This document shows positions 15,768 through 20,956 of a stretch of DNA of 33,053 nucleotides, piece after piece. Both the position numbers and the translations under genes were made by a program. The notes beneath the pieces were generated by a model. The model was not told the origin of the DNA and searched no databases. It saw only the letters and a list, made by a program, of their open reading frames with translations. Numbering within the stretch: position 1 is the first letter of the stretch; every line of letters starts with the position of its first letter. Origin of the DNA: Desulfobulbaceae bacterium S3730MH12 (lineage in GTDB: Bacteria; Desulfobacterota; Desulfobulbia; Desulfobulbales; Desulfocapsaceae). Where the stretch lies: contig MAXH01000246.1 of assembly GCA_001750925.1 (NCBI GenBank), positions 1-33,053 of the forward strand, written 5' to 3'.

Positions 15768-16874
15768 ATGAAAATTTTTAATGAAGCCAGGCTTAAAGAA
15801 GAACTCGACAATGTCATCAATGACTCTTTAAAAAGAGATGTTTTTTCAGGTGTTTGCTTGTCTTTTTCAACTTTAAAAGACTCTGTGAGGTGGAGTAGAA
15901 GCTATAGTTATGGAACTACTGAAAAATCAGGGTCACAAAAGAGGATTAAGCAAAGGACCTATTTTGATCTGGCATCATTAACAAAACCACTGGTCACAAC
16001 GCTTTCAATTGCAGTTTTAATTGAAGATGGATTAATTCGTTTGGAAGATGAGCTTTCTGATTGTTGTAGTTGGCAATTACCTGAGGATAAAAAAAGAATT
16101 ACAATTTCTCATCTTTTATCACATTCTTCAGGTTTGCCGGCTCATAAACCATATTATAAAAAACTACACGAAGTACCCGAACATCAAAAAAGTAAAAAAC
16201 TTCAAAAATGGATTTTGCAAGAAGAACTTTGTTTTTCACCCGGCACAGACAATCTATACAGCGATCTCGGTTTTATATTGCTTGGATTCATAATTGAAGA
16301 GAAAGCTGGAGTTTCACTGGATGTTTTATGGGAAAAGAAAGTTATTACCCCTTTAAAGCTGCAGAAATGGTTGTTATTTTCAAAAAATAAAAGTTTTGAT
16401 AGGAGACTGTGTGCTGTTACACAAAATTGCGTATGGAGTGGTAAAATGCTTTGTGGAATTGTCCATGATGATAACTGCAGAGCAATGGGTGGTGTGGGAG
16501 GACATGCCGGATTATTCGGTACAGCACCAGCTGTGTTGTCTCTTTGCGAACACTTAATAGAACAATTTAAGGGCAGGGAGGAACATCCTTCATATAGCTC
16601 AGCTCTGTTGAGACATTTGCTGACAAGAGTTGGTAAATCCAGCTGGGCTTACGGCTTTGATACCCCAACGAGAGGAAATTCAAGCAGCGGCAGGTTTTTC
16701 AGCAATGAAAGTAGAGGCCATTTAGGTTTTACGGGAACATCTTTTTGGATAGATTTTGAAAGGGATACTGCAATAGTTTTACTTACGAATAGAGTGCATT
16801 TGTCTGATAATATTGAAAAAATAAAAAAATTAAGACCACTTGTTCATGATATAATAATGAAATTTTTTTTATAA
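15768..16874 (+). CDS. Serine hydrolase of the beta-lactamase (class C)/esterase family
   Basis: A 368-residue member of the beta-lactamase-related serine hydrolase group. The nucleophile motif SxxK is SLTK (Ser70-Lys73), the second motif is YSD (164-166, in YSDLGFILLG), and HLGFTG (318-323) stands in the place of the KTG motif. GGVGGHAGLFGTA (241-253) is another family hallmark. No signal peptide is visible, so it is likely cytoplasmic and more probably an esterase or peptidase than an antibiotic-resistance enzyme; the substrate is unknown. The ATG has no clear Shine-Dalgarno. The gene looks more A/T-rich than dnaN-gyrB next door. It runs away from dnaN and converges on the small sulfur-cluster genes. 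Confidence 0.85.
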   Translation: MKIFNEARLKEELDNVINDSLKRDVFSGVCLSFSTLKDSVRWSRSYSYGTTEKSGSQKRIKQRTYFDLASLTKPLVTTLSIAVLIEDGLIRLEDELSDCCSWQLPEDKKRITISHLLSHSSGLPAHKPYYKKLHEVPEHQKSKKLQKWILQEELCFSPGTDNLYSDLGFILLGFIIEEKAGVSLDVLWEKKVITPLKLQKWLLFSKNKSFDRRLCAVTQNCVWSGKMLCGIVHDDNCRAMGGVGGHAGLFGTAPAVLSLCEHLIEQFKGREEHPSYSSALLRHLLTRVGKSSWAYGFDTPTRGNSSSGRFFSNESRGHLGFTGTSFWIDFERDTAIVLLTNRVHLSDNIEKIKKLRPLVHDIIMKFFL

Positions 16875-16886
16875 AAATATTATTCG

Positions 16887-16926
16887 CGAAAAAAAAGCTC
16901 CGTCAAACGTATCTGTTCAACGGAGC
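16887..16926 (-). terminator. Terminator of the tusA/dsrE operon
   Basis: On the minus strand GCTCCGT (16920-16926) pairs with ACGGAGC (16897-16903) and is followed by an eight-base T-run. It lies about 30 bases after the last small gene and also just past the plus-strand hydrolase gene. Confidence 0.8.
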
Positions 16927-16957
16927 CTGAGGTATTATTTAACCGACTACTTTATTA

Positions 16958-17131
16958 TTACCACCAGCAAATAGTTTGATCGGCTTCAAAAATTTTGTCA
17001 ACCAGATTACTATAATCCGGACTATCTACAGTCAAGTCAAAGGTATCAACCTCCCGGTCACGATTAACAATCTCAACTAACTTCTGTACAGTTTCATCCG
17101 GCTGCGATCTGTATACATTTAATATTTTCAT
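16958..17131 (-). CDS. Small conserved-type protein of the sulfur cluster (57 aa), possibly DsrH/TusB-like
   Basis: Starting at the ATG at 17131 (AGGAG ten bases upstream) gives a 57-residue protein; a longer frame from 17164 would overlap the previous gene and adds an unlikely N-terminus. It begins MKILNVYRSQPDETVQKLVE and ends in ICWW. It has one cysteine, third from the C-terminus. The aromatic C-terminus and its place behind two DsrE-like genes recall TusB/DsrH, the smallest partner of the DsrEFH/TusBCD complexes, but the similarity is too weak to name it. It is the last gene of the minus-strand operon and is followed by a terminator. A role with its neighbours in sulfur transfer is inferred from context only. 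Confidence 0.7.
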   Translation of the reverse strand: MKILNVYRSQPDETVQKLVEIVNRDREVDTFDLTVDSPDYSNLVDKIFEADQTICWW

Positions 17132-17153
17132 AGTATAGAAACTCCTGGATATT

Positions 17154-17456
17154 TTATTTGGCACCGTAGGGGATGATATGGGTCATTTCACGAAGTTTTT
17201 CACCAAGCTCTTCAATAGAAATAGCGGTGAAATCATTTTTTTCAACATCAGCCTGCACTGTGGTAAAAATATCGCCTTCCATGTCACGAAGCATTTCTAT
17301 GCTTTCTTTGGTCAACTCATCTATTTCAGGAATTTCTTTGTCAATCACCACGCCATATGAGTACATATTTTCGACAGCTAAACCTAAAGCTGATCTGATA
17401 CCATCTACGACGTAATCTTCGTGCCTGTACATGAAGCATACTTTTTTGTATTCCAT
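17154..17456 (-). CDS. Small protein of the sulfur cluster (100 aa), possibly DsrE/F-like fold
   Basis: A 100-residue protein with a good ribosome-binding site (AAAGGAG before ATAAAATG). The N-terminus KKVCFMYRHEDYVVDGIRSALGLA is strand-helix in pattern, like the start of DsrE/DsrF proteins, and a single cysteine, Cys7, is present. The remainder is acidic and mostly helical in pattern (EIDELTKESIEMLRDME, SIEELGEKLREM). I do not recognise a named family with certainty. It lies 12 bases after the dsrE-family gene and 22 bases before the next start, so it is clearly in the same operon. It matches the position of one of the two conserved hypothetical proteins in YTD-type clusters. Confidence 0.75.
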   Translation of the reverse strand: MEYKKVCFMYRHEDYVVDGIRSALGLAVENMYSYGVVIDKEIPEIDELTKESIEMLRDMEGDIFTTVQADVEKNDFTAISIEELGEKLREMTHIIPYGAK

Positions 17457-17468
17457 TTTATGTCTCCT

Positions 17469-17783
17469 TTACAGACTGAGGTAACAGTCAAAGTCTTCTA
17501 TCATAATACCGTGTTGAGCTTGAGTAGCCATTTTTTTTGCGGTTAATCCCTCGGGAATATCCTCAATATCAAAGCCCTGTTTTTTATAGCTGTCTACACA
17601 AATAGAAACATCATCAGCAAGATCACATAATCCGGCAAACTCAGGGTCTTTGGAGAGGGTTGTTGCCTTCCAGGTAAAAAAAACCTTTACATTGGATCCT
17701 TTGGCTTTAGCTGCTTTGGTGATGCCTATAACGTGTTGAAGGCTGTCTGTGGTAGTAACAAAAATACCTAAACTTTTTGCCAT
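17469..17783 (-). CDS. DsrE-family sulfur-carrier protein
   Basis: A 104-residue DsrE/DsrF-like protein: alternating strands and helices with LGIFVTTTDSLQHVIGITKAAKAKGSNVKVFFTW at the N-terminus. It has Cys53, Cys62 and Cys100; in this family a conserved cysteine carries persulfide sulfur. It has a clear GGAG Shine-Dalgarno and is transcribed with tusA upstream and two small genes downstream. DsrE proteins take sulfur from or give it to TusA-type carriers, so this is probably the partner of the TusA encoded next to it. It is about the usual length. Confidence 0.85.
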   Translation of the reverse strand: MAKSLGIFVTTTDSLQHVIGITKAAKAKGSNVKVFFTWKATTLSKDPEFAGLCDLADDVSICVDSYKKQGFDIEDIPEGLTAKKMATQAQHGIMIEDFDCYLSL

Positions 17784-17880
17784 ATTTATTCTCCTTCAAG
17801 AAGGTTGCCGGCTTTGATTTAACCGGCAGACATAAAAAAAATCAAATCGCAACCTATGTGCAATTCAATTTAAAGTTGGG

Positions 17881-17917
17881 AGAACCCGAAGGGTAAAGAA
17901 CTCACTGCGGGTTCTTT
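17881..17917 (-). promoter_or_regulatory. Alternative hairpins between tusA and dsrE
   Basis: AGAACCCG (17881-17888) can pair with CGGGTTCT (17908-17915). Alternatively ACCC/GGGT (17884-17887 with 17891-17894) and AAAGAAC/GTTCTTT (17895-17901 with 17911-17917) can form. The two foldings exclude each other. There is no T-run, so this looks like a processing or attenuation element that could set the tusA to dsrE ratio. Confidence 0.4.
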
Positions 17918-17923
17918 GAAGTA

Positions 17924-18181
17924 TTAACCTTTTTTGATAAAAAAACTTATATAACCGGACTCTTCTTTTTCTCCAAGATATTCATGTCCTGCCCGTTCAC
18001 ACCAACCGGGGAGATCATTTCTGGAACCCGGATCAGTTCCGTCCACCTGAAGAATGTCGCCGGAATTGATCTTTCCCATTTCTTTTTTAGTCCTGAGAAG
18101 CGGCATTGGACAACTGAGTCCCTTAGCATCAAGCACACTAGCTGGTTCTACTCCTTCTTCAATTACTTTGAAGTCACTCAT
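17924..18181 (-). CDS. tusA: TusA-family sulfurtransferase
   Basis: An 85-residue TusA/SirA-like sulfur carrier with the family motif CPMP; Cys24 in AKGLSCPMPLLRTKKEM is the persulfide-bearing residue. The remainder (GDILQVDGTDPGSRNDLPGWCERAGHEYLGEKEESGYISFFIKKG) has the expected strand-helix pattern, with the second cysteine at WCERAGH. It has a strong AGGAG site. In oxidisers and disproportionators TusA passes sulfur between transporters, DsrE and cytoplasmic enzymes. It is the first gene of the minus operon and divergent from the YedE transporter, with a good sigma-70 promoter upstream. Confidence 0.95.
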   Translation of the reverse strand: MSDFKVIEEGVEPASVLDAKGLSCPMPLLRTKKEMGKINSGDILQVDGTDPGSRNDLPGWCERAGHEYLGEKEESGYISFFIKKG

Positions 18182-18276
18182 AACTGTTCTCCTGGCATTT
18201 AATTTACTTATATAAGTTGATAAGAAAAAAATCCGATGGAGGATAAATTTCTTAACTGAAAAAAGTTCGTTTTTGA

Positions 18277-18305
18277 CCTATACTTTAGCTTCGGCCATCT
18301 GTCAA
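18277..18305 (-). promoter_or_regulatory. Sigma-70 promoter of the tusA operon
   Basis: On the minus strand TTGACA (18300-18305) and TATAGG (18277-18282) are separated by exactly 17 bases, near-consensus. Transcription would start about 90 bases before the tusA ATG. Confidence 0.7.
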
Positions 18306-18319
18306 GGAATGAAAAAACG

Positions 18320-18435
18320 AGCAGTGTAACCATGTGATATTTAAGCAAATAAAAATTACACCACAGTGTGGTGGTGGCGGGTGTGGTATGTCGTTTATCT
18401 TGACAAAAAATATGAGATGTGTAAAGCAGTGTAAC
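18320..18435. repeat. Direct repeat AGCAGTGTAAC, 105 bp apart
   Basis: The 11-mer AGCAGTGTAAC occurs at 18320-18330 and at 18425-18435, exactly 105 bases apart (ten helical turns). TTACACC, starting at 18356, carries the same core in inverse orientation between the copies. It looks like paired operator sites. Confidence 0.6.
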
Positions 18436-18549
18436 TATTCAGTAGGGGAAGGGGATTAGGTTTTCACATAAAGATACTGATTGACACAACAGGTATTTAT
18501 AAAAATAGAGTTGAAGGTTATTTTTTGTCTACTTAACAGGGAGAGCACT

Positions 18550-19794
18550 ATGAGTGAAGAATCAGTTTTCAAAAATAAGGCTAAAGAGCTATACGGCCTT
18601 TTCTGTGAAAAGGAGTGGAACCCCTATATTACTGGTGTCGTAGTTGCTTTTCTATCGGTAATGATAATGGCCTGGTGGAGACCGTGGGGGGCTGTTGGAG
18701 CTATCAGGAACTGGGGGGACTGGATAATGTTCGGGGGCGCCAGTATTTTTGGCTCGAATGGGGCTATTTTCGGGTTTTATGATGAAGCTCCACGGTCAAT
18801 TTTTGTGAATTCGGGTTCTGTTATAGGTATAGGTTTTGTTGCCGGTGCATTTATCTCTGCCTGCCTGGGAAAGGATTTTGCTTTGAGGATCCCACCATAT
18901 CGAGAAATGGTGAAAGCAGTAATTGCCGGTATTTTGATGGGAATTGGGGCAACTTTAGCCGGTGGATGTAATGTTGGTGGTTTCTATAATGCAATCGGGA
19001 ATTTCGGTGCCAACGGGTTCGCCATGATGTTTGGTCTTGTTTTTGGTGTTATTCTTGGTCTCAAGCTTCTTTACCTGGAAATGGAGTATATTACCTGGGG
19101 TGAAGGTGGTTCGAAAACCATTAGTTTTTCATCAAAGGTAGTCTATATAATGGGAACAGTATGTACCTTGGTTCTTATTGCCGCAGCTTACATATATGCG
19201 GGCAATGAAGACAGCGACTATATTGCGTCGTTGAGTGGTATAATACTTATTGCCGCAGCTCTTGGATATACCATGCAGCGAGGTCGGTGGTGTATGGTGC
19301 AGGGATTCCGTGAACCACATATGACCGGTGACTGTACTCTGGCTAAATCTGTTATGCTGTCGATAGTTATCGTGGCAATTGGTGCTGCAGTATTGAAATA
19401 TGCTGTTCCAATGAGAGCTGAAGGAGAGGCGGTACTGGCACCCCTTAATTATGTTCGGGGTACATTTGGCTGGGGCGGCGTTGTCGGTGGGTTTGTTTTT
19501 GGTCTTGGTGCCATGTTTGCCGGTGGTTGCGGCTCTGGAACATTGTGGCGTGTTGGCGAGGGGCAGGTTAAACTTATGATAGTTGTGCCTTTTTTTGGTA
19601 TAGTCTCGTCCGTTATGACTGCCTGGTTCAGGGATAATGATTTTGAGGCGGACGGGGTTCTCGGGTCCTATGTTTATATGCCTGATATTCTGGGTTATGG
19701 GCCAACACTTCTGGTTATCGGCCTTGCAATGATCGCCTGGTATCTTGTTGTCACCTGGAACGAAGAAACCAATAAATTGATAGTACCGATGTGA
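18550..19794 (+). CDS. YeeE/YedE-family sulfur (thiosulfate) transporter
   Basis: A membrane protein of the YeeE/YedE family, whose best-known member (TsuA) imports thiosulfate using conserved cysteines. The start is at the ATG at 18550, with GGGAGAG before it; a TTG at 18481 would add 23 unlikely residues. The 414-residue protein has many hydrophobic segments (about ten) and internal duplication: GGCNVGG (138-144, Cys140) and GGCGSGT (325-331, Cys327) are equivalent pore motifs, while GRWCMVQGFREPHMTGDC (245-262, Cys248 and Cys262) resembles the second conserved pair. It is divergent from tusA. The likely role is to import a sulfur compound or hand sulfur to TusA. A strong terminator follows. 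Confidence 0.9.
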   Translation: MSEESVFKNKAKELYGLFCEKEWNPYITGVVVAFLSVMIMAWWRPWGAVGAIRNWGDWIMFGGASIFGSNGAIFGFYDEAPRSIFVNSGSVIGIGFVAGAFISACLGKDFALRIPPYREMVKAVIAGILMGIGATLAGGCNVGGFYNAIGNFGANGFAMMFGLVFGVILGLKLLYLEMEYITWGEGGSKTISFSSKVVYIMGTVCTLVLIAAAYIYAGNEDSDYIASLSGIILIAAALGYTMQRGRWCMVQGFREPHMTGDCTLAKSVMLSIVIVAIGAAVLKYAVPMRAEGEAVLAPLNYVRGTFGWGGVVGGFVFGLGAMFAGGCGSGTLWRVGEGQVKLMIVVPFFGIVSSVMTAWFRDNDFEADGVLGSYVYMPDILGYGPTLLVIGLAMIAWYLVVTWNEETNKLIVPM

Positions 19795-19818
19795 CACTGT
19801 AAAAAAGGTAGAAATAGA

Positions 19819-19861
19819 AGCGCAATTTCACCCTGCAGTGAGATTGCGCTTTTTCTTTTTT
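19819..19861 (+). terminator. Terminator of yedE
   Basis: The 13-base arms 19819-19831 and 19838-19850 pair with a single wobble around CCTGCA and are followed by TTTTCTTTTT. It lies 25 bases past the stop codon of the transporter. Confidence 0.9.
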
Positions 19862-19891
19862 ACTCCCAGGAAAATCAGGAGTAAGACACCA

Positions 19892-20956
19892 ATGAGAAAG
19901 ACAGCAATTTTTAGAGACAATCTCTTTTTATCCCATGATCCCGGATACAACCATATTGAATCACCCGAGCGGATAAGGACGATATTTAACCTGCTGGATA
20001 AAATGCAGGAGATGGGAGAACTGATTGAACCATCGTTTCATTCGGCATCCGGAGATCTTCTTCGTTTAAACCATTCAGACGCTCTCATTGAAACTGTAGC
20101 TGCAACATCGGGCCAAATGTATTCAGTTCTTGATGCGGACACTCTTACCTCAAAAGAGAGTTATAGTGCAGCATGCCTTGCAGTCGGGGCTGTGGTGAAA
20201 GGGGTAGACCTTCTCTTTCAAGGTGAAATAGATAACGGTTTTGCCCTGGTCAGACCTCCGGGCCACCATGCTGAAAAACATAGATCCATGGGGTTTTGTC
20301 TCTTTAATAATGTAGCCATTGCTGCCCACCATGCCATTCAAAATTGCGGCGTTAACAGGGTAATGATTGTTGACTGGGATGTACACCATGGCAATGGAAC
20401 ACAGAATTCGTTTTATGATACTGATAAGGTGCTCTATATATCAACACACCAGTATCCTCTCTACCCGGGTACCGGATCTCTGGCAGAAACAGGATCAGGA
20501 CGGGGGGAAGGGTATACTATCAATATCCCTCTTCCGGGTGGTCAGGGGGATGTTGAATATGCTAATATTTTTAACACCTTAGTGGCACCTGTATGTCTGG
20601 AATATCAACCGGAGCTTATTCTTGTATCGGCGGGTTTTGATACATTTATTGAAGACAGTATCAGCTCAATGCAACTTACGCATAACGGGTTTGCTTATAT
20701 GACCAGGGTTATGGTTGAATTGGCAGAAACAGTGTGTAATGGGAAACTGTTAATTTCTCTCGAGGGAGGTTATAGCCTTGCCGGGATGAACAGAGGGGTT
20801 TTCGCGGTTCTCAGTGAATTGGCAGGCAATGATTTAAAAAATGTGCTTCCGGCAAAGGTTGATGAAAAAATATGCTGTCTGCTGGGAAAGGAAAAGAGTG
20901 CGCACACGGTGGTTGAGATGGCAAGGGACGTTGCAAAAACATATTGGAAAATGTAA
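19892..20956 (+). CDS. Histone deacetylase family protein (acetylpolyamine/AcuC-like amidohydrolase)
   Basis: A zinc-dependent deacetylase of the HDAC/AcuC/HdaH superfamily, removing acetyl groups from lysines or polyamines; the substrate is not known. With the ATG at 19892 (AGGAG ten bases upstream) the product is 354 residues; a GTG at 19838 would lie inside the terminator. Active-site motifs: RPPGHHAE (121-128, general-base His), DWDVHHGNGT (161-170) with zinc ligands in D-V-H, SAGFD (246-250, zinc ligand Asp), and LEGGYSL near the C-terminus with the catalytic tyrosine. Bacterial examples include acetoin-utilisation AcuC and acetylpolyamine amidohydrolase. Together with a terminator upstream, it appears to be a separate transcription unit. 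Confidence 0.93.
   Translation: MRKTAIFRDNLFLSHDPGYNHIESPERIRTIFNLLDKMQEMGELIEPSFHSASGDLLRLNHSDALIETVAATSGQMYSVLDADTLTSKESYSAACLAVGAVVKGVDLLFQGEIDNGFALVRPPGHHAEKHRSMGFCLFNNVAIAAHHAIQNCGVNRVMIVDWDVHHGNGTQNSFYDTDKVLYISTHQYPLYPGTGSLAETGSGRGEGYTINIPLPGGQGDVEYANIFNTLVAPVCLEYQPELILVSAGFDTFIEDSISSMQLTHNGFAYMTRVMVELAETVCNGKLLISLEGGYSLAGMNRGVFAVLSELAGNDLKNVLPAKVDEKICCLLGKEKSAHTVVEMARDVAKTYWKM

Follow-up and report, generated by a model that had tools for sequence, protein, structure and literature searches.

Does a five-gene YTD cluster in an uncultured member of the Desulfobulbales mean that its host lives by sulfur disproportionation, or does such a cluster serve the handling of reduced sulfur more generally? 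We addressed this question for the cluster at positions 16958-19797 of a 33,053-nucleotide stretch of DNA (the window) from Desulfobulbaceae bacterium S3730MH12 (contig MAXH01000246.1). A sequence-only reading had described the cluster as complete and divergently arranged, with genes for a YedE-like transporter, TusA, a DsrE-family protein and two small conserved hypothetical proteins (Chp2 and Chp1). It had noted that this combination was proposed as a marker of disproportionation, which is right as history, and had predicted that the host disproportionates elemental sulfur (S0) or thiosulfate. Our analysis indicates that the cluster is an ordinary representative of an established type. It shows a capacity to handle reduced sulfur, and by itself it is no proof of living by the splitting of sulfur into sulfide and sulfate; its function is probably that of a general relay for sulfane sulfur.

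Both strands of the region 16500-20300 of the window were read for open reading frames, and all five were found at the positions given by the sequence-only reading. On the minus strand, from left to right, lie the dsrH-like chp1 (16958..17131, 57 amino acids, ATG at 17131, C-terminus ...TICWW), the dsrF-like chp2 (17154..17456, 100 amino acids), the dsrE-like gene (17469..17783, 104 amino acids) and tusA (17924..18181, 85 amino acids). They are followed on the plus strand by the yedE/yeeE-family transporter gene (18550..19794, 414 amino acids). TusA carries a CPMP motif (Cys24) and matched PF01206 (E=1e-23), and the transporter matched PF04143 (Sulf_transp, E=9.5e-50). The frame of yedE is open from a TTG at 18481, the conserved start being the ATG at 18550. 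A longer form of chp1 beginning at GTG 17164 was unsupported, and the 57-amino-acid ATG form aligned over its full length in 30/30 loci of relatives.

These 30 loci were retrieved after a search for Chp2 among 58 relatives, 46 of which were positive. The gene order was the same in all of them, with yedE beyond the edge of one short locus (L019), and the cluster is therefore not a chance arrangement. In a second set, consisting of the 80 best loci from named genomes, all five genes lay within the fetched stretch in 65, and yedE was on the opposite strand in 62 of these 65; several of the incomplete loci end at contig ends. The five-part divergent arrangement is thus confirmed. The two small proteins, on whose company in other disproportionators the sequence-only reading had staked its proposal, clearly stand beside the cluster there. 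The YTD clusters of Desulfolithobacter dissulfuricans and Desulfofustis glycolicus have the same yedE, tusA, dsrE, chp2 and chp1, and the cluster of our host, an uncultured relative, is no different from them. YedE and TusA were 74-82% identical to their counterparts in D. glycolicus and Desulforhopalus singaporensis, and orthology rests on this identity together with synteny. Chp1 aligned in 30/30 loci with a mean column identity of 84%. Several cysteines were also conserved: Cys62 of DsrE, in the motif SICVDSY, was present in 110/110 sequences and Cys53 in 106 of them, Cys24 of TusA was found in 107/108, and Cys140, Cys248 and Cys327 of YedE showed no substitution where aligned. Chp2 was detected in 207/258 genomes of the order (80%) and in 133/149 of those of better quality, which makes the cluster near-core in the order.

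We also examined the identities of the three small proteins. None of them gave a significant family match of its own in Pfam or NCBIfam; PF02635 was matched by 18/30 members of the DsrE family. AlphaFold2 models of DsrE and Chp2 reached pLDDT values of 92.4 and 92.7. The best match of the DsrE model in the PDB was the DsrE-family structure 3pnx (E=3.9e-4), followed by 2qs7. Foldseek matched the Chp2 model to the same two structures and to 2fb6, a protein of unknown function, with probabilities of 0.99-1.00, TM scores of 0.56-0.62 and marginal E values of about 0.01. Sequence profiles of the three proteins gave only chance-level matches to PDB sequences, save a weak one to the DsrE-family 2qs7 (E=0.68). 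According to their models, DsrE and Chp2 have DsrE-superfamily folds, and Chp2 is a predicted DsrF-like second subunit, its fold matching the DsrE/F family at a marginal E value. Chp1 would be the DsrH-like third subunit, an equivalence taken from PMC13293266 and PMC13047784. In these two 2026 papers, the three genes are assigned to DsrEFH type II (PMC13293266) or to a DsrEFH-like complex (PMC13047784), and the folds of DsrE and Chp2 obtained here agree with that assignment. In the cable bacterium Electronema aureum, DsrEFH type II is likewise encoded by three small adjacent genes after tusA, with a DsrE fold and one conserved cysteine (Cys67 there, Cys62 here). Persulfide transfer from TusA through DsrEFH to DsrC was demonstrated in vitro in that system (PMC13293266), whereas the present one is known from genes and models. 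Conservation, rather than superposition on 2HY5, suggests that Cys62 corresponds to Cys67 of Electronema and Cys78 of 2HY5. The folds of DsrE and Chp2 also resemble those of DsrEFH type I and TusBCD, in keeping with a likely role as a cytoplasmic sulfur transferase, but the third subunit is much shorter here. Type I DsrF/TusC exceeded its cut-off in 0 of the 258 genomes of the order, so that type II is the sole candidate transferase of that kind seen. Two Chp2 homologues were present in some genomes (among them G143, G144, G145, G010 and G210), and the E values of Chp2 fell into a strong group of about 1e-36 to 1e-58 and a weak group of about 1e-22 to 1e-28, which may correspond to the published subtypes of DsrEFH-II.

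Taking the cluster as a whole, we consider a general sulfane-sulfur relay its probable function. YedE would bring a sulfane-sulfur compound, such as thiosulfate or polysulfide, into the cytoplasm, and TusA would accept the sulfur as a persulfide. The complex of DsrE, Chp2 and Chp1 (DsrEFH type II) would hand the sulfur on Cys62 of DsrE to DsrC, and DsrAB, then AprAB/Sat, would oxidize it via sulfite to sulfate. Such a relay would serve sulfur oxidation generally and, when no external electron acceptor is present, the oxidative half of disproportionation, without being dedicated to the latter. In the host, it could feed a reversed reductive-type DsrAB or a second set, rDsrABL-2. The YeeE/YedE membrane protein, the TusA with its reactive cysteine, the DsrE-fold subunits with their invariant cysteine and the conserved synteny are demonstrated or strongly supported. 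The import, acceptance and relay steps rest on protein families, folds, conserved cysteines and the published in vitro transfer, in which a type II protein from cable bacteria, produced recombinantly, passed sulfur one way to DsrC (PMC13293266). The direction of flow, the substrate and the partner DsrAB in the host are what we infer.

Several points weigh against this relay. No dsrC was found in the host assembly, which is 82% complete (G000). Alignment of the small-protein profiles with E. coli TusD, TusC and TusB by hhalign gave no match, leaving the kinship with TusBCD to rest on fold. The reversal of a reductive DsrAB is unproven at the enzyme level, and thiosulfate was not a substrate in vitro for the TusA and DsrEFH-II of cable bacteria (PMC13293266). 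In addition, the YTD proteins increase in Desulfolithobacter during thiosulfate disproportionation (PMC9751629), an observation that suits a cluster dedicated to disproportionation equally well.

According to that alternative, the host lives at least partly on the splitting of S0 or thiosulfate, with YedE importing the substrate, TusA and DsrEFH-II feeding the oxidative branch, and Dsr together with Phs/MOLY making sulfide. We regard this as unlikely, although several observations favor it. In Desulfolithobacter, the increase concerned all five proteins (PMC9751629). YTD was present in all S0 disproportionators examined, and YTD combined with MOLY, the other candidate for sulfur disproportionation, is the best current candidate (PMC12998232). 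Carriers among the relatives include D. glycolicus, which disproportionates S0, and D. singaporensis, which disproportionates sulfite. Moreover, on contig C147 of the host (L211:5392-9141), genes for a TorD-like chaperone (PF02613), a Tat-type molybdopterin subunit (PF00384; RRKFLQ, read from the sequence) and an Fe-S subunit are adjacent, and this set appears MOLY-like in architecture; two PhsA-like proteins scored below cut-off. By contrast, a restriction of the cluster to disproportionating species was not observed: the cluster is nearly ubiquitous in the order, and it is complete in Desulfosediminicola flagellatus IMCC35005 (L057), a species that did not grow autotrophically when tested for disproportionation of thiosulfate, S0 not being reported as tested (PMC8497536). 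YTD also occurs in strains for which the evidence speaks against every form of disproportionation, and it was concluded that YTD may take part in S0 disproportionation but cannot serve alone as a marker (PMC12998232). Only 25/63 cultured disproportionators have YTD; among cultured sulfate or sulfite reducers, 35 have it, of which 14 also disproportionate and 21 are not listed as doing so (PMC13293266). The cluster is, furthermore, expressed by sulfide-oxidizing cable bacteria (PMC13293266, PMC13047784). Its role is under active dispute, three papers from 2026 treating it as a disproportionation candidate, as one part of a pathway of the disproportionation type within sulfide oxidation, or as an indicator of sulfur oxidation. 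Since carriers are both positive and negative and the spread is near-core, disproportionation by the host is possible and supported by its carrier relatives and MOLY-like set, but it is not implied, and the inference from cluster to disproportionating host is weak. The sequence-only reading had itself named an equal occurrence in non-disproportionators as an argument against its prediction, and such an occurrence was found in part. Either sulfur oxidation or disproportionation may take place in the host.

In the host genome, a reductive dsrAB with dsrD is split over contigs C131 and C134, and aprA is present. A second dsrAB lies on contig C184 (L153:761-4851), followed by a gene for a DsrL of 580 amino acids (dsrL-2) with a YRR motif read from the sequence. 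The second DsrA shared 77-81% identity with copies from five other genomes of the order, against about 42-45% with the reductive copies, and the second dsrA copies formed a separate long branch in a tree that contained no oxidative reference sequence. No oxidative dsrA reference was found in viral contigs and plasmids, the plasmids yielding only asrC-like genes; the designation as oxidative type therefore rests on orthology to published strains. In these, Desulfopila sp. IMCC35006 and IMCC35008 and Desulforhopalus sp. IMCC35007, one dsrAB copy was classed in 2020 as oxidative rdsrABL-2, and the genomes were said to lack dsrEFH (PMC7596348). Contamination as the source of C184 was judged unlikely, because its flank matched a genome of the same genus at 82% DNA identity and the same set occurs in the single-contig genome G162. 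The second dsr genes have a GC content of 0.50-0.52, compared with about 0.41 in their flanks, which suits transfer. A conserved gene of 121 amino acids with no family match lies 3' of rdsrABL-2 in the host and was also found in G156 and G009. DsrL of the dsrL-2 type was found in only 9/258 genomes of the order (E <= 1e-150), and Chp2 was present in 9/9 of these; given the base rate of 80% (0.8^9 = 0.13), this co-occurrence is not significant.

The surroundings of rdsrABL-2 in other genomes suggest a coupling to sulfide oxidation and nitrate. In G162, taken as IMCC35008, rdsrABL-2 directly follows genes for a protein similar to sulfide:quinone oxidoreductase (SQR) and a DUF1641 protein (L181:4415-10688), and a NarG-like gene lies near rdsrABL-2 in G009 and G171 (L182:105-3719; L180:13612-15000). 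NapA scored over its cut-off in the host. The host also has an SQR homologue on contig C34 (L208, about 1501-2673; L215, 4112 onwards), the frame of which is broken by a TGA. This TGA aligned exactly with Cys332 of the IMCC35008 protein (DGHAV-TGA-FIE versus DGHANCFIE), which is presumably the second of the catalytic cysteines in type III SQRs (Cys339 in PMC13047784). A conserved hairpin (GGCUU...AAGCC) resembling a selenocysteine insertion sequence lies 3' of the TGA, the same TGA column was observed in the host and six relatives (loci L203-L207 and L209), and nine more genomes had one in-frame TGA. On the simplest reading of these sequences, the interrupted gene probably encodes a selenocysteine SQR; a literature search turned up no report of such an enzyme in bacteria.

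The full YTD cluster was detected in IMCC35006, IMCC35007 and IMCC35008 (L043, L041 and L050), so the genomes described as lacking dsrEFH (PMC7596348) in fact possess type II, a form that had yet to be described and was left out of the count. The host resembles them in having both dsrAB sets together with YTD. We tentatively propose that, in Desulfocapsaceae with two dsrAB sets, YTD may be the missing DsrEFH: type II may feed rDsrABL-2 with sulfane sulfur from the putative selenocysteine SQR, and one cell may both reduce sulfate by DsrABD and oxidize sulfide by rDsrABL-2, for example with nitrate through NapA. Desulfopila and Desulforhopalus are unmentioned in the main text of PMC13293266. The donor of sulfur to rDsrABL-2 thus becomes a concrete question, testable in the cultured strains IMCC35006-35008. 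The host genome is a useful case as well, since genes for sulfate reduction, dsrAB-dsrL-2, SQR, nitrate reductase and a MOLY-like set occur together in it.

The cluster could instead supply sulfur for biosynthesis, with YedE and a TusA-type partner taking up thiosulfate as YeeE-YeeD do in E. coli and Spirochaeta, and the DsrE-like subunits forming a Tus-like thiolation relay; this we consider improbable. DsrE-fold proteins also act in tRNA thiolation, as E. coli TusBCD do, and YedE belongs to PF04143 and has an adjacent TusA-type gene, as do the YeeE/TsuA transporters with YeeD/TsuB. According to work cited in PMC13293266, the latter take part in the assimilatory uptake of thiosulfate. Scores against the corresponding NCBIfam models were, however, far below the curated cut-offs (TsuA/YeeE, 107.5 versus 645; TsuA, 83.9 versus 400; TsuB/YeeD with TusA, 21.1 versus 147.5). 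Type II is also found mainly alongside reductive dsrAB (PMC13293266), and in three Desulfobulbales it was consistently and highly expressed among the genes of sulfur metabolism (PMC13047784). A relay in the reductive direction, carrying sulfide or persulfide from DsrC to export or cofactor synthesis, is very improbable: 73.9% of carriers also have reductive dsrAB and TusA and DsrC exchange sulfur both ways in vitro, but DsrC was no sulfur donor to DsrEFH type II, where transfer ran only towards DsrC (PMC13293266). A second pair of PF04143 halves at C87:3489-4584 of the host (L159) is likely a two-gene YeeE-type transporter.

The remaining genes of the window, named by eye from their translations, look housekeeping (gyrAB, dnaN, parAB, gatCA, hisC, cmk etc.), and no further sulfur genes were recognized among the translations so read. 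According to Pfam, the neighbors of the cluster encode a protein of beta-lactamase fold, one resembling histone deacetylases and an HD-domain response regulator. Terminator-like hairpins bound the cluster on both sides, one 3' of chp1 on the minus strand (16928-16895; 14-pair stem and T-run) and one 3' of yedE on the plus strand (19816..19853; 16-pair stem and T-run). The 368 bases between tusA and yedE (18182..18549) form, by position, a divergent promoter region, in which the promoter-like matches are consensus hits only. Between tusA and dsrE (17784..17923, minus strand), the RNA folds strongly into three hairpins (-41.1 kcal/mol, z=-3.88), an energy as low being reached by 0/200 shuffles, and had no match in Rfam. 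The length of this gap varies across the genus from about 24 to >300 bases. The three-hairpin RNA could allow tusA and dsrEFH to be expressed at different levels.

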